Source of the DNA: Chromera velia
Taxonomy: Eukaryota > Sar > Chromeraceae
DNA: 33,538 nt
Direction of reading: 5' to 3'
Assembly: GCA_018398765.1 (NCBI GenBank)
Contig: JAHBMJ010001249.1
Coordinates: 1-33,538 of the forward strand
Shown here: positions 1,481-27,668 of the stretch, one piece after another
Layout of the letters: each line of letters begins with the position of its first letter
Numbering within the stretch: the stretch's first letter is position 1
Made by a program: the position numbers and the translations under genes
Notes under the pieces: generated by a model
The model's database searches: none
What the model was told of the DNA's origin: nothing
Seen by the model: only the letters and a program-made list of their open reading frames with translations

Positions 1481-2177
1481 ATGCTTAAGTACACTCTTGC
1501 CTGTCTCCTTGGCGGTGTCTCCGTCTCCGCCCATGTCTGCCTTCTCGAGCCCCGACAGAGGGGGGAGCTGGGTTTGTCTGTGTCAGGGGACCACAGTTGC
1601 TACAGAAGGACGCCGTACTGTGGTGATGTGGCCGTGGAGTCTCCCTCTGTTGAGTGGAAAGCCAACTCTCGAGTTCGCGTCTCCGTTCAGCAGAACTTCA
1701 ACCACTGGAACAGCGAGAAGCAGGGATTCATTGACCTTGCAGTCGCAGAGCTGAAGGAAGCCGAGACTAACGATGAGGACAAGTGGAGGAAGCTCACCAG
1801 GTACGGGTCTTTTGGGTCGCCTGGTTGTGTGGGAGAAGGAGTTGTGCCGACTCATCTGCGTTTTCTTTTTCTGAATCGTCTCACATGGCATGAACTCCCG
1901 CTCCCCCTCCCCCTCCCCGTATGTGCCCCCCACATCCCCCCCCTCTCTCCTCATCCCCCAAATGATGCGGGCATGTTTCTCCATGGCGTGGTGTATACGC
2001 TCTCGTGTGTGTTTGTGTGTGTTGTGCGCTTGTGTGTGCATGTGGGGAGGGGGGTCGGCTGGGAGGGGTGTGGGAATGTGCAGCTGTGTCCGTGTCTGTC
2101 TGTCTATCTCTCTGTTCTTCTGTCTCTCTCTGGTTTTCGCTCTCTCTCTCGCGCGCGCGACCGCGACCGCTCTCTTT

Positions 2178-2232
<55 letters not shown>

Positions 2233-3513
2233 CGTGCGTGTGGGCTGCCCTGCCGATTGACCTGCATGCAGCTGGCAGGACTTTCCTGCGTGGGAGATGC
2301 ACACGCAGACGAACTTCACGGTGTCCGTCGATGTGCCCAACTTCGCGTGCGACCACTGCATCCTCAGGGTGCGGTATGTGTCCTACAACCCCCTGGAAGT
2401 CGACCCTGAGGACAACACGGATGCGATCTTCTACAACTGCGCAGACATCAGAATTGTCAAGGAGCTCGAGCGTCCCTCCAAACTGAGGGGCCCTCGTCAG
2501 GAGTCGGAGACGGCAGAGGCGGGCACAGAGGAGAGAGAGAGTCAGACTTTGACTTTGCCTTCTCTCTCCCTCCAAGATGAGCCGATTGACCCTATCATCT
2601 ACTCCCGTGTGTGCACCTCCCCCCCCGTGTTCTCTCTCAACTGCACTGAGCGGAACACGCTCGGAGAGGTTACCCACCAGATCTACTGGGACGAGAAGGC
2701 TCTGAAGACGAGGTGGGACAAGCAGGGGGCGATTTCGACAACTGCGGGCACTGAGTCGATTTCCCTCATTAACGACTACACGAAGCCTATCGAGTACGTG
2801 AACCTCCTCAAGGAGGGCGTGTGCGAAGTGAGCGAGAACAACAAGTACTACCCGATGAAGTTTGGGCACACAGAGGGCATGTTCCACAGAGGAAGGGGGG
2901 GCAGCGACCTGTGGATTGCAGACCACAGATATGAGCACGCGAAATGGATGACACAGTAAGTGAGTGGCGGGAGGGATGACTGGAGTCGATTCTGAAGACA
3001 AAGACGAAGAAAAGGAAAAAATCAGGGTGCCTTTTCTACTCGTCTTCCCTCCTTCCTCCCTTCCTCCCTCCCTTCCTTCCTTCCGTCCGTCCGTCCGTCC
3101 GTCCTTCCGTCCATCCATCCATCCATCCAAGCAGCCTTTCTTTTTTTTCTGTTTAATTGCCTGCTGTTGTGCCCGATGTGCACGTAGACAGGCATGCACG
3201 CGCGCACACACCTCCGTGCACACATGCAGCACCGCTTCTCTCTCTTCCTTATTTCTCTCTCTGCAGATACGTCGATGAGAAGGCGAACCTCTGCATCCCG
3301 ACAGCATGGTCCCACGGCGGTCACACGCCCTCCCGGGTGGTCACCTGCGACTCCTACAGCCTGGACCCCATCCCTGCCAGCGTCTTCGAGCCCGCGCCTG
3401 AGTGCGTGCAGGAGAAGACGGTCAAGTTCTCCGGGTGCAGGCCGGAGCAGGCCAGAAGCACTTGGATGAAATTCTACGGGCAGGGGCCGACTGAGAGCAT
3501 CATCGTGCAGTAA
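1481..3513 (+). CDS. Secreted LPMO-like (histidine-brace) protein, 3 exons, 416 aa
   Basis: Exons are 1481-1800, 2272-2955 and 3267-3513 (stop 3511-3513), with splice phases that join cleanly. ATG 1481 is the first ATG in its frame. Residues 1-17 form a short hydrophobic signal peptide ending in SVSA, so cleavage would leave His18 as the N-terminus, as in lytic polysaccharide monooxygenases, where this His is a copper ligand. A second candidate ligand is His75 in QNFNHWN. Further family-like elements are CYRRTPYCG (40-48), CDHCILRVRY (133-142) and FYNCADIRI (160-168), which may supply the axial aromatic residue. The closest style I recall is the protist 'chitin-binding type 4/LPMO' group. Residues about 170-416 are a Cys-containing extension I do not recognise. 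The likely role is oxidative attack on an extracellular or wall polysaccharide, but the substrate cannot be told. A copper-binding, non-catalytic relative (BIM1/X325-like) is the main alternative. Confidence 0.75.
2177..2230 (+). repeat. (TG)n-(AG)n compound microsatellite in LPMO-like intron 1
   Basis: About 13 TG units run straight into about 15 AG units inside the intron 1801-2271. Long apparent reading frames here on both strands are products of the repeat. Confidence 0.9.
3045..3130 (+). repeat. CCTT/CCGT/CCAT microsatellite in LPMO-like intron 2
   Basis: Tetranucleotide arrays TTCC, then GTCC, then ATCC follow each other within the intron 2956-3266, whose 3' end is a pyrimidine tract followed by CTGCAG. 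Confidence 0.85.
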
Positions 3514-4242: not shown

Positions 4243-5924
4243 ACACAGTACGGTTAGGAGGAACCAAATTAATTTGGTTACGGCCGCCTGGAAATTACAT
4301 TTATGGGTACGGTAGTAAGTTGGGGCAGAGGTACCATGGTAGTGGTAGTATAGCAGGTTTTCCTAATAATCTTACGTTTTTCAATAAAAAGATTCATAAA
4401 ATATGAAACAATCAATTAAAAAATTATAAAAGCTTTTTGTAAAAAACGATTAAAATGATTGAAAACAATCGTTTTACATTTTTCTAATGGAACATTAATG
4501 TGCGGGACCTAATAAATTTATGTCACCTTATGAATCTAGGCAATGATGTAAAGAATGTTAGAGTAATGTAAAAAATTATGAGACGGATGAGACGGAAAGT
4601 CATGCAGTTCTGAAAAACGAACGCAGAGGATCAAAGAGGATGAACAGTAGGCTCAGACGCTGTAAAAACAGCTGTTCTTACCTCGTTGCTTGCACCTCGA
4701 GCCTCGCTTTTTTTTAGAAACTAGCTCATATGCGAGCTCTCTCTGTAGAATCAAATGAATCAATCGTGAAATTTAGAGAAGTTCAACCCTAGGTTCAACT
4801 GTTTCATCTTTTTAGAATAGATGTATGATAGATTACAAATTAAAGGCTTGATCCGAAAGTGAGGGTAAACATACATGCACGTTTATACATTTTTTTTACC
4901 GCTTTGCCAGGGCCTTTGGTCCAAACTACCATCGCTATGGTTAATTACTTGACGCGGGGGTCTAAGACCTCCTTGGTTAGTACACAATGGTTACTAATGA
5001 CCACATTTGATTTGATTTGATTTGATTTGATTTGATTTGATTTGAAGTAGGGTTTAACCTCAAATCAAATCTTAGGCCTGAGAAACTTTAGCATGATAAG
5101 GTCTATCAAATCCTATCGAATCTACTTCAAATCTGACCCTTTAACCTCAAATCTTCGAGGTCAATCCGTCATCCAGTCTCTCAAATGAGTCTTCGCACTT
5201 TTTTATGCGGAAAAAAAAAAAAATCATAAAAAGATTTTTTTATCGGTTTCACATGAATATGAACGCCCAAAAGCTTTTAATTCCAAAGGTCTGTTCAGTG
5301 AAAAAGAGGTCATCCAGTATATTTTCCAGACATTCAAGTTTTGATTGAGGGTTTGAAGTGGTTTTTTGTTATTTTGTGGCAGTTTTTACGTTTTTTTCTT
5401 AAATTGCCTTGGGCCTTTCTTGGGCCCCCCCCTATCAAACCGATCAACGATGTCAAACAATCCCACAGGTCATGCATAACAACAAGAAAATTCTAGTCTT
5501 AAATTAAGATGATTCTCTAGGATAACTCTAAGATACTAGCTAAGATAAAAACTTATGTAAACTCTTAGCTTTGACAATAGTTTATTATAATTTTGAAAGT
5601 CTGAATTTAGCTTTTAATCTAGTTTTTAGTGATTTTCTTGTCTTTAAGGCTTCCTAGAATTTGCTAGTAGTGTCGACTATGTCATGTCGTCTTCAGTGCT
5701 GTCGACAGCTAGGTCGAGAGTGACCTCTAGACTTCAACCTCAAATTTACCTCAAATCTGGTCAGATTTGAGCTTGAAGCTCAAATCAAATCAAATCAAAT
5801 TAAATCAAATCAAATCCTATCAAATCAAATCTGGTCACTACTGATTACCGCTCACGAGTTACCAAATCCATTGTTACCATGAAATCGCTTGACCCCCTTG
5901 GTAGTTCCCCCTAAGCGTACTGTA
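4243..5924. mobile_element. Non-autonomous TIR DNA transposon with 11-bp target-site duplication
   Basis: The left end reads CACAGTACGGTTAGGAGGAA from 4244. The right end, read inward on the other strand from 5924, is TACAGTACGCTTAGGGGGAA, with about three mismatches over 20-21 bases. The element is flanked by a perfect 11-bp direct repeat TAACTGGTGTT at 4232-4242 and 5925-5935. The 1.68-kb interior is AT-rich, has no transposase frame, and contains inverted arrays of TTTGA (5006-5045) and CAAAT (about 5780-5830) that could fold back. A duplication of 9-11 bp is typical of Mutator-like elements, but I cannot assign the superfamily. Confidence 0.75.
5006..5045 (+). repeat. (TTTGA)8 array, left arm of internal fold-back
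   Basis: Eight perfect TTTGA units. The reverse-complement array, CAAAT units with a few changes, lies at about 5780-5830, so the two arms could pair across a 0.73-kb loop inside the transposon. Flanking bases are also partly inverted: TAATGACCA before this array, TGGTCACTA after the other. Confidence 0.85.
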
Positions 5925-5935
5925 TAACTGGTGTT

Positions 5936-6315
5936 TATTTGTACATAAGCCTTTTAAAATGTTATTTTATCAGCTAGTCTGCTAGCTAGTATGTCAGTAA
6001 AATTTTGAATTCCACTAAACTTTTAATTAAAAGTTTTGATTGCTAGTTTGATTGCAAAAAATTTTAAATTTTGAAGGTAAACTATTAATTATTTTACTAT
6101 TTTAACTTTATCTTATCAGAATTTCTGTGGTGGCGACTACGTTAGGGATTCAATCTAACTTTATATCTGAGACAAAAGTCGGACTTCAATTTCTGCTTCA
6201 ACTTCTTTAAGTTCCAAGTTTCTAGTTGTAAGTACATTGGTCTCAAAAAGTAAGTATCGAATAATGAAACCTAGAAATTTAATTATCTTTATCAGCTAAC
6301 GTCTTTAGTATGTTT
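5936..6315. other. AT-rich spacer downstream of the methyltransferase gene
   Basis: AT-rich DNA with no coding frame or recognisable repeat. It must contain the 3' end of the minus-strand methyltransferase transcript, but no unambiguous polyadenylation signal is visible. Confidence 0.4.
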
Positions 6316-7752
6316 TCATCGAGGCTCTCCCCATAGAATCCACAAGTCGCCTCGGTCTGCAACTGAAGATGCGCTAGATGAACCACAATCTTTCCCATAT
6401 TCCGCGTTTGACTCGTGACTCTCTGTAGACTGATGTTTCATTTCTTCGGAAGCCATGGCTTTTGAGATGCTGCTGAACTTCCCCCCCTCTCTCTCGGCCT
6501 GTTCACTGGATTTCCACTTCGATCGTGCTTGACAAAGTGTTGCAGCCTCTTCGATCTCAAAGTCTTCAACGGTTGTTTTCTCTCGGGGACCACAGCTGAC
6601 AGCATGCGAGGCATCGGGCGTGATATCGAAAAGACGGTAGTGAGACAGGAGACAACCGAAAAACCGGACAACCGCGGGATCCCGATATCGGTGCCCTATC
6701 AAGAGACGGGGCAGTCTCAGAGAAGACCCACTCGATCTAGAGTCGGACTTTTCCCCCGCATTCTCACTTGCCTTCATGAGTCTGGCCGACAAAATGGCCA
6801 GGCCCTCTGCCGCCATGCTGCTGCTTTGATCAGAGCCCTCCTCTCCATGGTCAACGACCTCTCTGTTTTCCTCAACACATGCAGGCCCAGACAAGGGCCC
6901 CGGAGAAACCGCAGAGAGGGCCCCGGCATCCCCGCCTGCTGCAAGGATTGTTGAGAGAAGAGGAGGAAAGTGACACTCATCGTACAAAACGTCGGAGAGA
7001 ATCACCACATCGAAAGGGGGGGCTGGGTTTGTTGCAGGCTGATCATCTCCCGGGGTATCGGCTGAGCCACAGACGGTTGGGATCGAAGGCGTCTCCGGGC
7101 TCCCCTCCTCTTCCCCAGAAACAGATTTCTGTTCAACATTGCCAGAGAGACGCGCACCGTCCGTGCCCTCCCTGTCCCTTCTGCCCCCCCTCTGCTCCTC
7201 CAAGGCAGCGAACATCTCCAGAGATCCCCAGTCCAACTCCTTCCCCAGGATCTGGGCCTTCCTTCCCGTCTCTGCAGTTGGTCACGTTCAGACAGACAGG
7301 GAGGGATAAAAAGGGGAAACACGGGATAATCATTTTGGGGAGAAACAAAACGGTCTGTTGAGCAACTACCAGTCTGGAGCTACACATATTCATACGTTCA
7401 AAAGGAGATTGAAGCTGGTGAGTGAATCACTCATCCCAAAAATGTGTGTGACTCAAATGACACAAACTTCAACAATGCCCCTCCCCCATCTGTCAAGCGA
7501 ATGTTTTCTGTTCGCATCGAATAAGAAGCCGCAGTCGACCTACCCGTTCCAAAATTGAAGTTCAGGTTGGCGGCCAGAACGTCAGTCGCGTCCGCCTTGT
7601 CTGTGCAGACGACCTCCAACGCCCCTAATCGCGCTGCAACCATTCCCTGCAGAAAAAGAAAGAGAAGAAAGGTGCCAGTCAATTTGCCCTCTCGGAAAGC
7701 AGGTACAGAAAAACCATCGGAACGAGAGAAGGACGACATGCACACACACTGA

Positions 7753-7783
<31 letters not shown>

Positions 7784-9596
7784 ACACACAGACACATACA
7801 CATACGCTCACACTTTCTCACTCACTCACGCACGCATATACAGACACACAGGGAGACGCAGGCAACTTCCCACTTGGTAGTGAAGCAAAACCTCAAAAAC
7901 AAAAGAACGAGTCGCACCACAACCAATGACAAATGAATTCTGCATGCCCTCTCTGCATCCACACCACAACTACTTGTCATTCATCCGCTTAATTGATTCT
8001 ACCTACTCCAATCCATAGACTGACCACGGCTCCGGTTCCAGCCCCCAGCTCCAAACACCTTTTCCCTCTAACCAGGGCACTCACCATCCTTCCCGCCCCC
8101 CCCTCATTCCCACCCCCTCTGAGATCCCCAGGGTCGGAAATGGAGGGCACAAGCGACTCGACAGAAGTTTTTAATTGAAAAGGAAGAGGAAGAGAAGAGA
8201 ACCAGAGAGTCTCACAGAGGAGAAGTGCACAATCCCACACGCGACATGCGAGAGAGGAAGCGAGATCTGCTGCCTCCAGAAAAAACACAGAGGAAGGCGA
8301 AGGGTCGAGGGAAACTTCCACGTTGCCCTTCTGCTCTGTTGATTGACTATAATCTTCTTTCTCTTGCTCTTCTACAGCTGTAGAGGGGAAGATTCTCAGA
8401 CTTCTGTACCTTCCTCTTTCACTCGATAGAAAAGAAAGCATCTCTTCTCGCTTTCTTTGCCGTCTTGCCTCTTCTGTTGCCTCTTCAAATTGCCTCTCTT
8501 CCTTTTCTTCTTCTTCCTTCTCAGCTTGATCGCTTGCGGGGATGACGCCTTCGACGTGGCATGCCGGGGCCCTTGTGCTGTCCGGAGATATACTTGACAG
8601 AGGGACTTGCCCTTCGGCTAAAACGGAATCAGGGCTGGGGCCTCTAGAGGAAGAGGCAATGCCGGGGCCCTTGGAGGACGAGAATGAGGGAATGCCGGGG
8701 TCTCTAGAGTGGGGCAGAAGTGCTGGTGGATTGGAGGACTTGGGTGTCTGGGCCAGGGAGAGGGAGAGGGACCGTGAGGAGGAATTTCTTGAGTCCTTCT
8801 CCTTCTCCCTTTCTTTCCCTCCTTCCCTCCCGCGCCCAGAGGGCCTTCGTGCTTTCTGCCCCCCCTTCCCTGCCTTCTGTTTTTGCCGGGGCCCACTCTG
8901 GTCCCTTGGGTCATGCCGGGGCCCTCGGTTGTGATCGAGCGGAGTTTCTGGTTTTGGCCCGCCTCTCCCCGTCTCACTTGGTTGGCTTCTCTCTCTCGGT
9001 GGTCTGTCAACGGCTTTGCGGGCTTGCACTTCAAAAGGAAAAGAAACCACGGAGACAATACGACCCCCCTTGCCAGCTGCCGAGGACGCTTCGGGTGTGT
9101 GAGAAATTCGGTCAGGCGGGCCCGCCATTCCCACAGACAGCATGAGGAAAGCCATGCCCTCCCCCCCTCCCTCCCTACACTGGATTTTCCCCTCCGTCTC
9201 TCTGATGACGAAAGAAAATTTCACCCTCCCCTTGGAGGTCAGCACAAGGTCACGGGGATTCAGCACAACCAGACGGTACCCGGTGCCAGTCCCGTCTGCC
9301 CTTAGGATGGCTGTTTCAGTTCTGCCATCTACTTGGTGTGTCTCGGCAGAGGAGTCAGGATTCTTTTGTTCCTTGACAGACCCTGGAAGTGCCCCGCAAA
9401 AAGAGATGGGGACTTTATACGGCAAAATCTGTGCGCAGAGGCTCACGGAGGCCTGCCTGTCCCTCTCTCTTTCCCTGCCTCGCCCTTCTGCCCCCCCCCT
9501 TGCGTGTTGCTGCCGAGAGCATTCTGAGAGGACGCTCTCAAGGCCGGCAGGGGAGAGGAGCTCGTTTAGCACGTAGAGCTGCAGTGATACAGGCAT
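6316..9596 (-). CDS. METTL21/methyltransferase-16 family SAM-dependent methyltransferase, 3 exons, 876 aa
   Basis: Exons in transcription order are 9596-8025, 7646-7544 and 7271-6316. Joins restore family motifs: ELGAGTGAV (516-524) runs into GMVAARLGA, giving the SAM-binding motif I block. The second join gives KELDWG (569-574), the usual post-acidic segment. FDVVILSDVLYD (645-656) is motif IV, and VWDCALLLC (about 453-461) matches the conserved helix before motif I. Members methylate lysines of cytosolic proteins such as chaperones and elongation factors; the target here is unknown. Family enzymes are usually 220-350 aa. Here about 440 residues of Arg/Glu/Ser/Pro-rich low-complexity sequence precede the core, and further acidic and Ser-rich insertions interrupt its C-terminal half. 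The ATG at 9596 lies just upstream of a CTGCAG that could be a splice acceptor, so the true start may be in another exon further upstream. Confidence 0.8.
7751..7803 (+). repeat. CT/CA microsatellite in methyltransferase intron 1
   Basis: CTCT runs pass into CACACA within the intron 7647-8024 of the minus-strand methyltransferase gene. Confidence 0.85.
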
Positions 9597-10705
9597 GCAG
9601 TCTCAAGCAGCGGTTGAGGGGGTGGAGGAGACAGAAACCCGCTCAGCAACACATGCACATTCTGATACCCAGTGTGAGCCCTCTGTTGATTTCCCCCTGC
9701 ATTTCTCCGACCCTAATCAGCCCGAAAATTGAAAAATCACCTGTCAAGGTCTGTCATGGAGAAAAAAACTGCACGCTGATGACTGCTCTCCAAAGAACGT
9801 GTAAACCTGTTCGCGTACCCACAAATCTACAATGAATGCATGTATACAAAGAACGCCTGTGCAGATACATCCTTCAATTTCTGTCCTTTTCAGCTGACCT
9901 CAACAGATTGTTCTACCCCGAGAGTCACCACAGAAGGGGGGGGCGTTTTGAAGTACAGCCGGAGACTTGAGTTTTCCAACTGGGATGACGTGTCCATTCT
10001 TCCGTGCGTGTTGGAGTGCGCTGAGACTGTATATATACTAGTCACCCTCTGTGCGAACCTATGAAATGCTATGCTGCGGCAACCTGACAGCACATGACAG
10101 CTCATGGAGCCCTCACGATACCAGCTTCCGGAAGGCTGTTACCGTCTTTGTTCCGTATCGAGTGATTCTGAGTCCTGGAGAGACTTGCAGACGCGTAGAC
10201 GGGTCCGATTTGTTCGCGCGTGCAACACTATATATATAGCTTGTTCGCGTTGTACTCGTCTGTTGTTTTCATGCGAGGCCTGCATGTGTTGCATCCATGC
10301 ACACGTTTGCACACCCTGTCGATCTTGACAGTGTACTGGTTCCCTACCAGTTGCAGATCGACGAGCAATTGCACAGTAATAACGTGTATATAGGCAGCAT
10401 TTATCCAGAGGTCTTTCTCGCTTTTCACTTGTGGTACTGCATTCTTTGACTGGGTGCGTGGCCGTGCGGAGAGCGGCAAAGTGTCTCCATCAGTGTTGTT
10501 TTCGATCTGAAACACTCTGCTCGTCCACATCGTATCCCTGGTTGCGAATCAGGAAGAATCTGTTCGTGTCTGCTCAGCACATCTCCCTCAAGACAACGCA
10601 GATACACGAAGGGGGAAGCACGGCGAGCTTTGGAGTCTTGTCACCGTTCTATACGAAAAAATTTGCTTCTGAATCCCGAGGTTTTCCTTTACCCATTTCG
10701 TTCCA
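9597..10705. promoter_or_regulatory. Divergent intergenic region shared by methyltransferase and GT41 genes
   Basis: The methyltransferase reads left and the GT41 gene reads right from this 1.1-kb spacer. Three TATA-like stretches occur: TGTATATATACTAG near 10027, CTATATATATAGC near 10229, and TGTATATAGG at 10385-10394. The last is about 310 bases before the GT41 ATG and is the best candidate for that gene. No convincing coding exon is visible, although an upstream exon of the methyltransferase could lie here. Confidence 0.35.
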
Positions 10706-13250
10706 ATGGCTGGCCTCTTTTCCCTCAGCATTCTTGCTTTTTGCACCTCTTGTCTCTTCTCCTCTCTGGCAAATGACCAGCAGCCACCCCCGTGCACGTA
10801 CCCCAACCCACCCACACCAGAGAACCTTATCGCTGCAGAGGAGAGATGCAGAAGCGCTCCCGAACAGTTCCACAGCCCCTCTGCACTGTTCAACTGGGGA
10901 CGGATGGTCGACTCTCTGTGCGACATGGGCAGGAAGAAGGAACCACACATCAGCCATGAGAAGGCGATTGAGCGCTACAAAGCTGCCGTGCAGAAGGCGG
11001 GGGGTGTCCACAAAGAGTCCATGAACAACATTGGTCGCGTGCTGACCTTCTCTCTCAACCGATTGGCGGAGGGAGAGGCAGTCCTCAGGTTCGTTTCGTT
11101 TGTTTTCTGTTTCTGAATACAAATCCCTAATCCTGAAAATTGCATCTACAGCTATGACTGAGACATGGTAAAGAACGGACGTCGGAGAGTGCCAAGGCCA
11201 ACATTTTTGTCTTTGAGTCTTCATCAAACGACGAGAAAAGAGTCATTGCATTGGCCCGAAAGATCGTTTTTTTCATCGAAAGGACTGCGTTGGTGCGCAC
11301 CATTTATCTAGAACCGTTTTGAATGGTGATTCGAAGCGAGTCTGTCTTTCTATAACGTGGTAATATTCATAGACGTCATTAAGAATATGTGCAGGCAAGC
11401 TTTCGAGGCAGTGGGTGCCTGGTTCTCCCCCGTGAGGAGCAACCTTGCAAAGAATTTGATCAGGCAGGAGAGGATAGGGGAGGCCCTTGAGGTCTACGAA
11501 ATAGCAAAAAAACAAAATGCCAGTCTGACAGCAGGAGAGGAATTTGAGGCAGGGACCCTGATGCCAACAAACTATGAGAGCATGGAAGACCAGACGAAGT
11601 GGCTTCGGAGGTTAGTCTTCTGTCTTCTGCCGTGTGCCTTGTGCGTTCTCTCATTTTGTTGTTCAGTGCTTGTGGTCTTTGTATGTCTCTGGAGAGGTCA
11701 GACTTCTTCTTTCTGTCTCATGTTTACTGTCGTCTGTTTTCTCTCTCCCTTTTTTTCATGAATTGGGTGGGTCATCACTTTTCTCCTCTCTTCTGTTCTC
11801 TTCTCTTCTCTCTCTGAGAGACGACAGTCCTGCCGCGGAAAAAATCCCCAGTCCTCTGTGTGGAGAGAGGGGAGATCACCTTTTGAATGTCTGCCTGTCT
11901 GACTGCAGATACCTTTCCCGTCTGGAGGACCTGAAAAAGAAACCCAACCTGCAGCTGAGGGATCCTTTCAAGGAAATCACATTCAAAAACGCGCCAGGAT
12001 ACTACCTTCTTGCCTACCTGCAGTTCAACATCGCGCCCTTGGTCTGTTCTTGTGCTCATGCTTGCTGTATGCACCTATATACGTGTCTGTTTGTGACACC
12101 TCTGTGTCTTTATTGGCGAAGATGAACCATAAGCGTGGAGTGATCTGGATGGGACTGTCTGTACAATTGCATATTGCTCTTTGTTTTTTGTTTCCATTAG
12201 CCTAACGGTCGCGTGAGTCAATTTTGTTCTCCATCTGCGCTTAAACCAGGCCTAAAATCGCCTAGCATCTCTCAAAATTCCCCTGCTCTAGCTTCGTGAA
12301 TCAACAAGCCCTCGTTTCTGACTTCTGTACGTCCACCTGTCTGTCTTCACACTATTTTTGCATATGTAAATTGTGCGCGCGTACATCGAATCGCTGCACA
12401 CAATTTGAACAATTCCCATCGTGCAGGTCAATCTGCTTGCACGGGTGTACGAGAAAGCGACGCCGTCTCTTCGTTATGTCGCGAACGGACTTGAGAGCAT
12501 TCCGTGGGAGAAAGAGGAGGAAGAAGAAGACGAAGAAGAAGAGGAAGGGGGGATGGCGGCGGGGCAGTTTGTCAACTGGCAACCTCAGTGGAGGTGGGCG
12601 GAACCCCCGAGCAAGGTGGATCCCTCTACTGGGGGAAAGAGGAAAATCAGAGTCGGCGTTCTCTCCTTCTTCTTCAGGTTCCATGCATCAGGTCAGTCAG
12701 TCTGCCAATCAGTCAAACAATTTATAGGAGACAGACAGCCTTTCAGGCAGCAATACAGGCAGTAGATTGGAGCAGCAGTCAGGCATGCAGGAAGTTGGAC
12801 AGATAATGATCCCTTTGTATGAACAGAAACATGTTGTGAATATCAAAATTGAAGACCAGGTGGCGATATTTGATTGGCATTTTCCTTTCACCTTCCAGGT
12901 CAGGTTTTTCAATTCAACAGAGATGCTTCGAATAGATGTTCACGAACAGAGATTGAGAAACATGAACGGCCAAAATTGAAATGTAGTTGTTTTTCTCCCT
13001 GTATGTACATCTGCAAGCAAACAGGTCGGATGGCCTCTGGGGTGTTTCCTCATTTGGACCCTACGAAGTTTCACTTGACGGTCTTCTTTGCGAGAGAACC
13101 CAAACACGGTTCTCTCCTAAACAGCAATGACCCAATATCCACGACGTTCAGAAAGAGGGCAGACGAGAGTGTGGACTTGCCGATGGTCTCTCTCCAACAT
13201 GTAAGTCAGTGGGTGGGTGGGTGAATGAGCAAAAACATCAGTTGTGTTCC

Positions 13251-13281
<31 letters not shown>

Positions 13282-15554
13282 TCGTTCTTTCTTTCTGTGT
13301 TTCTGTCTTTCTGGCTTTCTGTCTTTCTGTCTTTCTTTCTTTCTGTCTTTCTTTCTTTCCTTCCTTCTTTCTTTCTTTCTTTCTTTCTTGCCTACTTGCT
13401 TGCTTGTTCGTCCTGATAATTACCATTCTCTGTCTTTTAATGAATTTAAGTGCGTTTGAACAGCGGGGGTCGCACGGCAGACTAGGAAGAATGGTGACGT
13501 TGAATCTGTGTGACAAGCAAAGTTGCTTGACCCCCTTTCTTCCATTGGTGATCTGCAGGCCCGAGAGGAGATTGCCAAGAGGAAGCTGGACGTCCTTGTG
13601 TATGCAGCGCTGGGCATGGAGCCCTTCTCCTGGTTCCTCGCCTTCTCCAGACTCGCTCCTGTGCAGATCGCCACTCACGGACACGCGTCAACGACCGGGA
13701 TCCAAAAAAGTCTCGACTTCTATGCAACGTACAGGTCAGCCAAAGCTCGTCTATCTCATACGCGTCATTCAATGTGTTGACCACTTTCGCGATGAATCAG
13801 GTACACAAACACTCACCCTTCCGCTCACTTGATTCGCACAGCTGTCTGTCTGAGTGGAGGCATGCGTGGGTGGGATCGAAAGATTCTGCGATTCGTTGAG
13901 AAGGATTCCTTGATTGAATGTGTTAAGCTCGTTTGATGATCATTCTTCTGGCACTCATCGGTGCTGTACCCGTGCGCGTCAATGAAGGTTTGCGTGGGTG
14001 ATCTGATTTTTTGTCTGGCTGCATGCAGAGGTTTTGAAGCTTTTGATGGGCAAAGCAGGTACACGGAGAGACTGTTGACGCATCAGGGAATGGTCAAGTC
14101 AGTCTCTGAAGTGAAATTTGAAGTAGCCATGATCTTCTTGGCAATGCAGGATGAATGACTAATATCTTTCTTTCCTCAGATGGTATTCTTCCTGATTTCT
14201 GCGACAGCAATTGTCTTTTTCTCGGTCCCTTGTTCAATCACACCAACACTGAAGCGACTCTCTCACTTGAGTCCTCAGTCACGAAGTGAGGGGCAGACAA
14301 GACTCTGGTTACGATAAGCGTGAGAAATCTCAGCAGACGAGAAAGGCAGACAGCCACCACCAAACACATCAAGCATCGAAATTCCTTCCTCCTCTGCATG
14401 AATGAAGGACGGAGGATGAGTTCAGAAAAAGGTCAACTAATACACGGATTGGAGAGAAAGGTAGAAGAGGAGAGGGAGACGCAGTGTTCCTTTCTTCTCT
14501 TTTTTGACACTTACTTTCTTTCTCCGCTTCCTTTTTCTTCAGGTATCCCCGCAGGAACATATTCTCCCCCCAGGTCCACGGGCGGGAGTCTATAGGCCTT
14601 CCGGAGTCTGGTCCTCTCCTGATTTGTCTGCAGACACCGTTCAAAAACACCCCGACATTCGACAGAGTCTGGAAGGCACTGCTGATTGCCATCCCCGATG
14701 CTACAGTGGTGTTCAAGGAGGTTGAGCCTCCTGCGTTGAAAGAGAGATTCCGTAAAAGATTCGAGGCGGCGTTGGGAGAAGACCTCTATAAGAGAGTGGT
14801 GTGGGCACGGGGGTTGGATAACCAGAAGTGGTTTGACATCATGAGAGTGGCCACTGTGTTTGTGGATTCGTATCCTTTTGGAGGGTACACAACCTCTCTG
14901 GAGGCACTGGATGTCGGTCTTCCCATCGTCACTCTAGAAAGCCCTGGGATGATGGGCAGGTGTTCTGGAGGGTTTTTGAGGGCTGTGGGTGTGGGGGAAG
15001 AGACGGTGGCAGTTGATGCAGACGATCTGATTGTCAAGGTGAGAGCCTTGGCGACCAACTCGACCCTCCGCTCGGAAGTCAGCAACCGCATTCTGCAAAA
15101 TCTGGGTGCCTTACATGACGACGACACTTCAGTTCGGGGGTGGGAAAAAACGTTTGAGGAGACATTCGAGGCAGTCGAAAGAAGCCGCAAGCAGACAGGT
15201 CCCGAACGGGTGGGTCCGAATATCACGTGGATTCATGAGTGGGAGGAGAGAGTGCCCTATGCAGGGGAAGAAGTGGACGTGCACCATCAGAGAGTATGGC
15301 ACAAGAAGCTGAAAAAACAAGTGAAGCAGATGGGGACACAGCTGGAGGCAGAGCACTTGTTGCAGTTGACTGGACGGGGTTGGGATACCTCGGGTTTGTG
15401 CAGTGCAGAGACTGAAGCAGAGTCGGCAGACGGTAATACAGAAGAAGCGGACAGGAGCGGGGTTTGCAGGGAGCCAGGCTCTAACCCAGAAGCCAAAAAT
15501 GTAGCGCGGGCCGGGCAGGCTCGTGGACACCGCGGTGACCATGATGAGCTCTAA
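10706..15554 (+). CDS. GT41 (O-GlcNAc-transferase-like) enzyme with signal peptide and C-terminal HDEL, 8 exons, 809 aa
   Basis: Exons are 10706-11088, 11395-11610, 11909-12041, 12427-12691, 13025-13200, 13559-13734, 14029-14097 and 14543-15554. Residues 1-22 are a hydrophobic signal peptide. Residues about 50-240 hold poorly conserved TPR-like helices (for example NLIRQERIGEALEVYEIAKK). An acidic Glu run at 272-284 precedes the catalytic part, which begins KIRVGVLSFFFRFH (317-330); His330 matches the conserved His at this point in OGT. LAPVQIATHGHASTTG (423-438) matches the APVQ...G.STG motif. DSYPFGGYTTSLEALDVG (581-598) matches the UDP-sugar site that reads NGHTTxxDxLWxG in typical OGTs. 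The protein ends in HDEL, an ER retrieval signal. GT41 enzymes add GlcNAc or fucose to Ser/Thr of nucleocytoplasmic proteins, whereas this one appears lumenal. Donor sugar and targets cannot be told. Microexon 7 (69 bases) is the weakest boundary. Confidence 0.85.
13249..13390 (+). repeat. (TTTC)n microsatellite in GT41 intron 5
   Basis: An imperfect TTTC/TTTG tetranucleotide array, about 140 bases long, lies inside the intron 13201-13558. Phe/Ser/Leu-rich frames read across it are artefacts. Confidence 0.9.
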
Positions 15555-17071: not shown

Positions 17072-20000
17072 TTAGGCACTGTCAGAGTCAGAGCTAGAGT
17101 CAGAGTCTGAGGCCACTGAGCTGGCGTCTGGGCTAACGTCCATATCAGACTCAGTGCCAGGTACCGCGAAAAACCCATGAAACCTGTCTAGACTGCGGAG
17201 TTTTCTCTCATTCATGAGTCTCTGCTTCAGAGCCGTCACTGCACTGGCGAATTCTAGGCTTCTGTCGGGAACCCCCCCCTCCCTGAACCCCGTCTGTGCG
17301 GACACATCGAGAGCCTTAAGTTTGGGCAACGACTCGCGACTGAGGAGGTCAACGAATGAGTTGAGACCCTCAGGGGTAATGGAGTTGCCAATCAGAGTCA
17401 GGTCGCAAAGCTTCAGATTGGGGGTGGATACAAGCCCGAGGGTAAGGAGCTTCAGCCCCCAGTCATCCACCTCACACTCGCACAGGTGAAGTTTCAGGAG
17501 GCTACTCAGCTTCCCGAGTCTAAATGATGCTGCCAATGACAACATCCCATCCACCCCCAGCCTGCCCCCTCTGATCACCAACCTCTCCAGATTGGGAAGT
17601 CCCCCTTGAGACTGTTCAACGGAGGACATCAGACTGTCAAATGAGGGTGGAGGCTGTGTGCTCTGATGTTGGGTACTAAGAAGAACCCCCCTTCCTAATT
17701 CCAGTCCCTTCAGGACTTTCCCAGGGAACCGCTGACTTCTGAGTGCGCCCGCGAGGGCAACGGCACACTCTTCATCAAACCCACAGTCGAGCAATAACAG
17801 GTCTTGAATCTTCGGAATCTTTCCTGACTCAAGAGCACGGGCAACAAACACCCCCCCCCCCCGGGCATTGGTTCGGGAAAGATTAAGACACTTCAGTTTT
17901 GGCAGACCGATCTCACTTTCACCTACAGCTTTCATCAAAGCTTTCACCCCCTCCCTTCCTACCTGAGGATTCTCCGAAAGATTCAAAAAAGTGACGGCAC
18001 ACAAGTCCCCTCGCGTGACCCCCACACCCAACTCAAGCAACGATTGGTCGGTCAGGGCCGTGTCCCCCAGGTCTATACCCTCCACCCCCCCTAAGTTTCC
18101 TCTACCGAAGCTTCGGACGAGCGACCCCACCCCCTCCCGACCCAGGCGAGCCCCTGAGAGACCCAGACAGGTCACCGGAGGGAGCCCGCGCTCACTCGCC
18201 TCCACCGAGGCCATCAACCCATCAACCTCCACCCTCACTGTCTCAGGGGGGCCCTCTGCAACCGCTCCCCCCTCCCCCGATCCCCGTAAAATCCAGGGAG
18301 GAATCGGAACATTCCATGACCACCTGTAACGTTCAGTCGCGAAAGACAGCCGCTCGGGCAGCCTGCCTGCCCTCACAGCCTCCCCCAGTGCCCCGACCCC
18401 CTCTTGATCGAACCACAGGGCGCCTGTGATGAGGCTTTCAAGACCGGGAAGCTTACCCGACGCAAGCGCAGCCACTACGGAACCCCCCAATTTCGCTACA
18501 GGGGTCCTCTCAAGTCCTAAACTCTTCAGGTGACGGAGGCCTACCTCACTCTCGGCAATGGCTGCCATGAATTCTTCCCACGCCCCCCTGTCCTCAGGGG
18601 CACCCCAGGAAAAATCTAGGGTGGTGATGGGAGGGAACTGGGAGGATCTGCCTCTCAGGGAGGCGGCAAACCCCCTCAACGCATCACCCGTCATCCTACC
18701 GCCATCCACAAGGAGGGTAGAGAGGTTTCGAAGTTTTCCTGACGAGAGGACAGGCCCCATCGAGGCCAACGCCTCCCCTGCTGTTGAAATTGAAAGTGCA
18801 AATTCTTCCAACAACGGTAGCCCTTCCTCGCTCTCCATCAACCCCCCCATCAACGTTTCCATCCCCTCCCTCCCTATAATCTCATCCAAAGACCCGCTAC
18901 CCTCGATTACAAACTTTCGGAGGCTCGGAAAGTTACCATGTCTGAATGCTGCAGCGAGAGGCACACAGTCTGCTTCAGACACATGCACGCAGTGCCAGGC
19001 CATCTCGGACAGATTGGGCAGCTGAACATCTGCGAGGGCAGTGAAGAATCGGAGCTTGGCATCTTTTGTCCCTTGGGACGTCCAAGTGCCGAAGAATTCG
19101 TCGTTAAAGTCGACCTGCCCTGGACCATTGTCCGGCAACGAGTAACAGTCAAAGACCAATCTCTGGATACAACGAAAGCGATTCAATTGGACGACGCTAG
19201 CGAGTGAGCTAAACATATGCTCTGCTTCGGCTTCATTCTGGATGACTATGCGAAGATTGAGAGAGTCAAATTTCGGGGGGTTGGGAGAGTTGGCCATCTC
19301 TCTAAAGAAGACAGCGGCTGTACGGTCAGGAAGATAAAGGCGGACAGTGCGGATGGGTGCATACACGCCGGCTCCTAGTTTTTGGGCATGGGATTCCTCT
19401 AGGAGATTCAGGGTCATCTGGATTTTCTCCAGGGGGGGACACTCTGGGGAGGCAAGGGCGTCTAGGAACACCCCCGGACCCTCTCCTGCCCCCCTCCACC
19501 TATCGCACCTCAGGTCTACATTCTTCAGAGAAGGGACCGCACTCTTTCTCAGAGCCCCTCCCAACGCCTTCAACCCCCCCTCAGACCCGCACCCCTCGTT
19601 CCCCCCAAGGTCGAGAGACTCTAGACACGGCAATTCCCCCTTCTCTAGCACACCCCCCAGAAGCACAACCTCCTCTTCCCCCAACCCACACCCCGACAGT
19701 CCCACCTCCCGCACTCGGGGAAGTGCCGCAGCGCTCAAAATTCGGCACACCGCTTTCATTTTCTGGCCCAATCGAGAGGTTCTTGATTGCCCGACCAGAG
19801 AGGTTTTCGAGAGTCCGAGGACCTCGAGGGAGACCAGGGGTTTCTCTGCGATCGCATCAGCGAGGCACTCCAGCCCCATTGCGGACAGCTGTGTGTGCTC
19901 GAGGATCAGCGTGCGGAGGGAGGAAGCAGACCCTGACCGGATCCACTCAGCCAAACCTTCAACCCTCTGCAGGTATCCCAGGAAGTTGCCTGCATCAGTG

Positions 20001-20600
20001 GATGGAGAACAGATCGAATGACGGAAGAGGCGAGGTGAACAAAGTAGAGACAAAAGTCTGAAACAAAGATAGACGGTGAAACGAGACAGGACACGTGCAC
20101 CGAGAGAGACAAATGAAACGGAAGAAGACCCGTCTCTGTGAGAAGCAATCAGACCCTCATGGAAAGACAGAGACGGGAACAGTAACTCGCCCTCTTTCCT
20201 TGCTACCTCAACAGAAAGGCGGTCATCATAGTCTTGCACACTGTGTGATGCGTGGCCTGCTTTGTGCGCCTGTTTCCTGTGCCTGTCTGGCTTTGTCAAG
20301 GTCGGCACATTTGCTTGCGATAGTTGCCCATGGGCTGGCTGCCTACCTCCTTAATTTCCTGTCTGCCTCACCACCAACTGACGGAAGGACCTATCGACTG
20401 ACCTTTCAAGGAGAGTTTCTCCAGAGTGCCTGGCAGCAAAGGAAAGACGTGTGCGGCCATAAGACGATCGATCGAATTGGCTGCACATCATCTCAGACGA
20501 CGCAGAGAACACGACAAAACAGAGCAGAGGGAACGGAAGATCATGGAGGAAAAAAGAACGGAAGGCCTAAAAAGAGACAGAAAGAACGAAGGAGAAAGGG

Positions 20601-26486: not shown

Positions 26487-26520
<34 letters not shown>

Positions 26521-26533
26521 CTTTCTTTCTTTC

Positions 26534-26572
<39 letters not shown>

Positions 26573-27668
26573 CTTTCTTTCTTTCTTTCTTTCTTTGTTT
26601 CTTTCTTTCTTCCTTTCTCATGAGCACGCCTCTGCATGTCCAGATTTGACCTGATGTGGTTTTCTTGATTGATATGTTGGGATGTGTCACAGGATGATCT
26701 GGAAGCACAAGGAGAGCCTTGGATGCTGTTGGAATCTGCGGTGCTGTCTTTTTCTTGCATTCGTTTGAAATCTGCGGTCGAGAAGATCCATGCCGAATCT
26801 ATCTAAATGCACGCAAACGAATGGATACAGTGTGATTGCTAACTTGAATGAATGCAGGCACGACAAGTACAGAGACTTTAAACGGTCCGGGACCGATCAG
26901 CAGAGGGAGGGTGACAATGCGCACTTCGTCAATGAGCACATTGATGCCAGTGAAGAGTTTGCTCTCGGATCCTCGCCGTGTATTTTGGCGGTGCGACAAG
27001 GATACAGTCAGTCGAATTCAAGTTCTCTCTGTTTGTTTTCTGTCTCTCCATGGGAAAACAGTAAGTGCATGATTTCCTGCGTGTATCTGTGTGCATGAAT
27101 GACTGTATGTATGGATGTATGTATTGTTTTCTTTCCAGTGACATCGGCCTGGCATTCTTTCTTCTCATGGTCCCTCTTTTCTCTTCTCTTTCCAAACGCC
27201 CTCCCTCCCTCTATCGGTCTCCGTGTTTTTCTCCCTTCAGGCCTCTGTCGATTTGAGTCAGACGAAGAGGGAGACCAGTGGGACGAGCTGTTCAGTCGGT
27301 TGGACCATGCGCTCGTTCAGTGGAGGGAGAGGGGAAGGGGAAAGGGGAAGAAAAAAACAAGGGAGGGCGGGGCGGGGGCAGGAGCGGCTGCCGCTGCAGC
27401 TGTAGGAGGAGACAGTGCCGGGGTTTCTTCTGTGTCGGACAGCAAGAAGAGGAAGGCAGATGGCGGTAGTGGGCCCGTCGGATTGGGCCCTCCATTCGTT
27501 ACTCATCCCCCGCACAACCTTGGGCCTGTGCTTCTTCCAGGTTTCCCTCCGGGATCTACCGTTTTCTCCCAGTCCTCCTTGAGTGGAGACGGGGAAGGGG
27601 GGGAAGGGGGAGAGGACGGGAGACCCCCGAAGAGGCACAAGGGGAGCGAAGAAGACGAGGAAAATTAA
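24237..27668 (+). CDS. Nuclear-type protein with two tandem CxH...CxxC zinc-binding units, 8 exons, 504 aa
   Basis: Exons are 24237-24423, 24662-24718, 24995-25063, 25420-25509, 25652-25834, 26078-26429, 26858-27006 and 27241-27668. After a Ser-rich start come two Cys/His units: C65-H67-C75-C78 and C84-H86-C97-C100 (CRHEKWHGIPCSEC, then CMHGKSK...CNIC). The spacing suits one zinc per unit and recalls the CxHG...CxxC repeats seen in algal and oomycete proteins, thought to bind nucleic acid or protein. A Ser-rich linker (about 105-135) leads to a predicted globular region (about 138-370; for example LLRSAKRLWEALEDHKKSGK and the Trp-rich LRWMVRWMTHAKEKHEVEMDF) that I do not recognise. The tail is Gly-, Lys- and acid-rich with nuclear-localisation-like KKRK and PPKRHKG. 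Seven introns all fit in phase. A role in transcription or RNA biology is inference. Confidence 0.7.
26487..26612 (+). repeat. (TTTC)n microsatellite in Cys/His gene intron 6
   Basis: An array of CTTT units, nearly perfect, within the intron 26430-26857, on the same strand relative to transcription as the TTTC array in the GT41 gene. Confidence 0.9.

Follow-up and report, generated by a model that had tools for sequence, protein, structure and literature searches.

The gene at 10706–15554 (plus strand) in a 33,538-nucleotide stretch of Chromera velia DNA (contig JAHBMJ010001249.1, positions 1 to 33,538; hereafter the window) is predicted to encode a soluble GT41-type glycosyltransferase of the endoplasmic reticulum (ER) lumen with bacterial-type affinity, a reading to which we assign a probability of about 0.75 on its sequence. 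The gene structure, both targeting sequences, a retrieval tail of the BiP type and conservation of the active-site Lys and His were read from the sequence. Characterized eukaryotic GT41 enzymes (OGT and SPINDLY) represent the standard case of sugar transfer that takes place outside the secretory pathway. If the reading is correct, the GT41 fold has moved into the lumen, and this alga is predicted to make lumenal or cell-wall glycoproteins of a new class.

Gene model

The gene comprises eight exons and seven introns, all GT-AG, in one open frame of 809 aa plus a stop, which agrees in length with the model proposed in an earlier sequence-only reading. The HDEL codons preceding the TAA were likewise confirmed, at 15540–15551, one base earlier than the 15541–15552 given there. 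Seven further combinations of nearby splice sites also stay open (801–808 codons including the stop); because start and stop were fixed in this enumeration, it does not test the gene ends. The features, all on the plus strand, are as follows.

10706–11088, +, exon 1: predicted signal peptide, linker and first tetratricopeptide repeat (TPR)-like helices in one shared frame; first in-frame ATG at 10706 and, 36 bases upstream of it, an in-frame TGA (10670)
10706–10771, +, signal-peptide-like N-terminus, residues 1–22 (cut between SSLA and NDQQ), with a counterpart in the paralogue
11395–11610, +, exon 2: TPR-like region
11909–12041, +, exon 3: connector region
12427–12691, +, exon 4: acidic insert, then start of the N-terminal catalytic lobe (KIRVGVLSFFFRFHASG)
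13025–13200, +, exon 5: N-terminal catalytic lobe
13559–13734, +, exon 6: N-terminal catalytic lobe, with motifs GMEP and RLAPVQ..HGHASTTG
14029–14097, +, exon 7: inter-lobe segment
14543–15554, +, exon 8: C-terminal catalytic lobe (K507, K531, W569, I572, F585, Y588, T589, E593) and C-terminal tail
15540–15551, +, HDEL retrieval signal (tail GDHDEL, the hexapeptide of two BiP-type HSP70s), followed by the TAA stop at 15552–15554

The single TPR match in the protein, to TPR_10 in the Pfam scan, is weak and below cut-off (residues 105–132, exons 1–2).

Predicted ER entry and retrieval signals

The n-region of the N-terminus (MAGLFSLSILAFCTSCLFSSLA, followed by NDQQ) is uncharged, and the core is hydrophobic. 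On a von Heijne-type signal-peptide matrix, which is a weak test, the highest score for any cut is 6.18, and the cut after A22, which is more plausible, scores 5.85; the likely secreted product of a neighboring gene scores only 2.17. The matrix score by itself is not decisive, and the comparative evidence is stronger. A paralogue on another contig (C3766:12894-17098, minus strand; five exons, 948 aa, 35% identity over 710 aa and 44% between the catalytic domains) carries a hydrophobic signal-like sequence, MSFPLGVLWILCATCVVC, at the aligned position. The best 15-residue Kyte-Doolittle mean is 2.30 in the paralogue and 2.12 in the window protein; none of 21 bacterial relatives, with starts taken crudely as the first Met, exceeds 1.57. 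Outside the N-terminus of the window protein, the best 19-residue mean is 1.38, below transmembrane strength; the chain has no transmembrane segment after the predicted signal peptide, as is required of a soluble ER resident. Three N-X-S/T sequons, at 169, 645 and 699, could carry glycans if the protein is lumenal.

At the other end of the protein, the chance of a C-terminal HDEL, calculated from the protein's own composition, is about 9.4e-6. The Chromera velia genome (177.8 Mb, 4040 contigs) was searched for comparable tails. Two BiP-type HSP70 genes (on C1522 and C786) end in YDGDHDEL and the window protein in RGDHDEL, the last six residues being identical; they are assigned to BiP because of the HDEL end and the HSP70 matches, which form the whole basis of the assignment. 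Two further HSP70s end in EEVD, the tail of the cytosolic type. These four C-termini were read from among 38 HSP70 matches, and the stretch examined for another candidate, on C3483, showed no C-terminus. A calreticulin gene (C3485), assigned by position and character and read without checking the last splice, ends in VRDEL. Among the thioredoxin family, the flanks of 30 of the 39 matches (those with loci) contained no stop preceded by [HKRSNDQE][DEN]EL; two loci were extended downstream, and one of these, discussed below, gave a tail. On the genes that could be read, HDEL is thus in use as a retrieval tail in this genome. The KDEL-receptor family has seven genome matches, loci L079–L083 among them, with best E values of 1.1e-33, 7.1e-27 and 4.9e-26; such multiplicity perhaps suits mixed ER tails.

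The sequence-only proposal of secretory targeting with ER retrieval is therefore supported by the paralogue's N-terminus and by the hexapeptide common to the two BiP-type HSP70s.

Several observations weigh against this interpretation. Among the open ATG-led 60-mers of the window, 22 of 190 reach the same matrix score, and the paralogue, at 4.55, falls below two of the bacterial relatives (L027 at 5.38 and L028 at 4.97). The last residues of the paralogue are LTTAA, with no HDEL, and therefore retention is not common to the pair; HDEL as a trait of the gene pair was accordingly rejected. Close homologues lacking both signals had been named beforehand as evidence against ER residence, and the paralogue presents half of that pattern, keeping the N-terminal signal without HDEL. 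Moreover, a PDI-like gene (C1141), again assigned by position and character with the last splice unchecked, ends in AEEL, so HDEL is not used by every ER protein in this genome. Further reservations concern the sampling and the phylogeny. The collections searched for relatives were prokaryotes, phages, plasmids and viral contigs, the eukaryotic comparison being the alga's own genome. Because the bacteria were picked by query-derived motifs, the tree described below conveys distance from OGT and SPINDLY and not a direction of transfer, and the bacteria form a clade of their own with support of only 90/85.

The C-terminus of the paralogue is also extended over a long stretch and bears no signal for ER retrieval; this protein may act later in the secretory pathway.

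Family placement

The protein contains a GT-B C-terminal lobe of the OGT/SPINDLY/NGT type, in which the catalytic Lys (K842 of human OGT) corresponds to K507. Its closest solved sequence is XcOGT and, by fold, human OGT. AlphaFold gave a usable model for residues 474–709 with the 20 bacterial rows described below, while exon 8 alone without an alignment reached a mean predicted local distance difference test score of 41; as modeled, the C-terminal lobe has the GT41 fold. Against PF13844 (cut-off 25), the window protein scores 23.9 bits, the paralogue 38.1 and the six scanned bacterial relatives, of 20, 54.8–85.2.

Scanning bacterial and archaeal genomes with the window–paralogue alignment yielded 22 relatives from 88 pattern matches, the better ones with 28–31% identity over about 500–630 aa; scans of viral contigs found none. 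Two relatives (L044 and L045) were left out as broken or misaligned, and 20 bacteria were kept. The gene of L045, on a contig of a betaproteobacterial metagenome-assembled genome (MAG), has its frame broken in pieces. Two alphaproteobacterial MAG contigs (L034 and L037) carry two adjoining GT41-type genes, the second tblastn match lying at about 4578–6164.

In the resulting 26-row tree, the window protein pairs with the paralogue as its sister (100/98), and this pair groups with the 20 bacteria (100/100), with XcOGT, an OGT-like Chromera protein (C1496), Thermobaculum OGT and AtSPY outside that clade. The references were these four only, three of them on long branches, human OGT and NGT not being among the rows; the grouping of XcOGT with the C1496 protein was flagged as a possible long-branch join. 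The C1496 locus, joined by eye, matches XcOGT best (1.4e-34), and its frame lacks HDEL, also by eye. Two exon pieces of another locus (C1083) match SPINDLY best (7.9e-10 and 2.5e-12). Since separate SPINDLY-like and OGT-like loci exist, the two secretory GT41s are additional to them. By its sequence affinities, the window protein belongs with the bacterial TPR-GT41 type and is orthologous to neither OGT nor SPINDLY. The label "O-GlcNAc-transferase-type" given in the sequence-only reading could not be upheld, as the protein groups with bacterial TPR-GT41s and does not keep the OGT donor-site residues.

Donor site and alternative explanations

The donor sites of OGT and SPINDLY differ at L866, R904 and C917 versus K689, A731 and Y744, and mixed combinations are reported in some prokaryotic and stramenopile enzymes (PMC10027727). 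At these positions, the window protein aligns K531, I572 and F585, which reproduces neither set; K531 is the one SPINDLY residue kept. The paralogue also has Lys here, whereas none of the 19 bacterial rows with a letter at this position does; therefore this Lys looks specific to the algal pair. The R904 position is Arg in none of the 20 bacterial rows, and the C917 position is Phe in 19 and Tyr in one. By alignment, we take the position of OGT H920 to be Tyr in the window protein. Further SPINDLY equivalences are K507 to K665, T589 to T748 and E593 to E752; T747 is replaced by Tyr, and the fucose-methyl pocket residues V497 and I592 correspond to S332 and H431. The C917 position is argued to set donor size, ApHMW1C, a UDP-glucose enzyme, reportedly having Phe there (PMC9715652), and a bulky residue is reported to clash with N-acetylglucosamine (GlcNAc) (PMC9715652, PMC10027727). 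Because the window protein has Phe at this position, UDP-GlcNAc is an unlikely donor; the sugar transferred is likelier to be a hexose or deoxyhexose carried by GDP or UDP. The expected donor would be a GDP- or UDP-sugar smaller than GlcNAc, and the residues do not choose between the two.

These residues bear on three enzymatic alternatives. A secretory O-GlcNAc transferase, an analogue of EOGT transferring GlcNAc from UDP-GlcNAc onto Ser/Thr of lumenal proteins, would suit the closest solved sequence (XcOGT), the human OGT fold and the retained catalytic Lys, but it is improbable given the replacement of L866, R904, C917 and H920 by K, I, F and Y, the reported clash of a bulky residue with GlcNAc (PMC9715652, PMC10027727) and a tree position separate from the OGT references. 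A SPINDLY-like O-fucosyltransferase of the ER lumen, or another GDP-sugar enzyme in which K531 reads guanine as K689 does in SPINDLY, is a possibility we rate clearly below even: it draws on the four aligned residues K531, K507, T589 and E593 and on the Lys that the paralogue shares and the bacterial rows lack, while the changes A731 to I, Y744 to F, T747 to Y and V497/I592 to S/H, the separate position of AtSPY in the tree and the alga's own SPINDLY-like locus on C1083 count against it. A lumenal glucosyltransferase in the style of HMW1C/NGT, moving glucose from UDP-glucose onto Asn or Ser/Thr, is unlikely, at about one chance in a handful or slightly better; the window protein scores 26.2 bits on NCBIfam NF049992 against a cut-off of 1000, K531 suggests a purine nucleotide, and the OGT and SPINDLY folds score equally well or better.

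Other explanations question the destination or the activity itself. Plastid proteins of complex-plastid algae are imported via the ER, and the N-terminus could serve as the opening part of a bipartite plastid-targeting leader, or lead to some other secretory destination, with HDEL present by chance. The genome is photosynthetic (58 light-harvesting family matches) and the paralogue lacks HDEL, both of which would suit such a destination. Nevertheless, we consider it very improbable because the chain downstream of the cut (NDQQPPPCTYPNPPTPENLIAAEERCR) is acidic and rich in proline, which transit peptides typically are not; in addition, HDEL has a chance of about 1e-5, and two BiP-type HSP70s have an identical tail. 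If transfer activity had been lost, the protein could be a pseudo-enzyme or a lectin-like ER folding factor, which would account for the unusual donor pocket and for the PF13844 score under the cut-off, but this too is improbable, as both the window protein and the paralogue retain Lys507, His330, T589, E593 and the PFGGYTT loop.

Proposed mechanism

For the ER-lumenal GT41-type enzyme that we favor, the signal peptide would bring the chain into the ER, where the TPR-like N-terminal third would probably hold acceptor polypeptides and the two-lobed GT-B domain would move one sugar directly from a nucleotide sugar onto them, with K507 acting on the phosphates by homology with OGT and SPINDLY. 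KDEL receptors would retrieve the protein from the Golgi via GDHDEL. The alga may have acquired or kept a bacterial type of TPR-GT41, duplicated it and given it a secretory address. The fuller proposal, which we advance tentatively and at somewhat less than even odds, is that a bacterial-type GT41, recruited to the secretory pathway and duplicated, adds single sugars to lumenal proteins in a modification for which no lumenal transferase family is known. This modification would be the ER equivalent of nucleocytosolic O-GlcNAc or O-fucose, drawing on a GDP- or UDP-hexose and made on acceptors that the TPRs hold.

Other features of the window

A three-exon gene at 1481–3513 (plus strand) encodes a likely secreted protein. 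Its possible signal-peptide cut falls just before a His (between VSVSA and HVCLLEP), as in copper histidine-brace proteins, and its BIM1-like and LPMO_10 Pfam matches are both below cut-off. Open frames at 6319–9602 (minus strand) include one CLELGAGTGAV motif that resembles, by eye, a methyltransferase S-adenosylmethionine loop; two pieces scanned against Pfam gave no match. A leucine-rich-repeat open frame of 1092 codons lies at 17075–20350 (minus strand), with LRR_4 and LRR_6 above cut-off. CTTT-type repeats were seen by eye at 13254–13390, inside intron 5 of the GT41 gene, and at 26488–26614. No tRNA genes or Rfam matches were found in the window.

Comparison with known systems

The description of GT41 enzymes as nuclear and cytosolic, on which the sequence-only reading relied, fits the characterized members, but predicted-secreted GT41s already stand in published tables. 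Guillardia theta has 8 of 60 and Goniomonas avonlea 0 of 88 (PMC6260743 Table 2); by column order, Saprolegnia parasitica has three, Achlya hypogyna two, and Phytophthora ramorum and P. sojae one apiece (PMC4316629); and more than three thraustochytrid genomes have entries in their secretomes (PMC6050695). A secretory GT41 therefore has precedent as a prediction, and the portions of these sources available to us contain no discussion of the entries. Brown algae have about ten GT41s each, with many groups distant from characterized ones (PMC11468063). Among the titles listed by our literature search, no report of an ER-localized GT41 was found, nor any paper pairing Chromera velia with an O-GlcNAc transferase or HDEL; the search also turned up no printed account of the ER-retention tail, the paralogue or the donor-site analysis. 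The cryptomonad, oomycete and thraustochytrid entries merit a second look, and the donor-site predictions are testable.

Among characterized GT41s, SPINDLY (AtSPY, TgSPY), a nucleocytosolic O-fucosyltransferase, falls in another clade and has 11 TPRs, compared with one weak match here; its A731, Y744, T747, V497 and I592 are not kept in the window protein, which carries predicted ER signals. OGT/SEC and XcOGT likewise fall in another clade, their L866, R904, C917 and H920 not being kept, and the ER signals set the window protein apart from them as well. The same signals, along with an NF049992 score far below cut-off, distinguish it from the HMW1C-like N-glucosyltransferases (ApNGT, AaNGT). 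EOGT is a lumenal protein glycosyltransferase, as are POFUT1/2, and these enzymes would share the compartment of the window protein while belonging to other CAZy families. EOGT is placed in GT61 (PMC4257092), and the POFUTs (GT65/GT68) are ER-localized (PMC10027727, PMC9715652). The bacterial TPR-GT41s, exemplified by gammaproteobacterial (L025) and alphaproteobacterial (L024) MAG proteins, differ in having weaker N-terminal hydrophobicity on a crude check, a hydrophobic residue at the SPINDLY K689 position and intronless frames. Nevertheless, the better ones align with the window protein over a span that takes in the TPR region, and the group shares with it the RLAPVQ..GH..TTG region, the Lys equivalent to K842 and a Phe where OGT has C917, and forms one clade with it (100/100).

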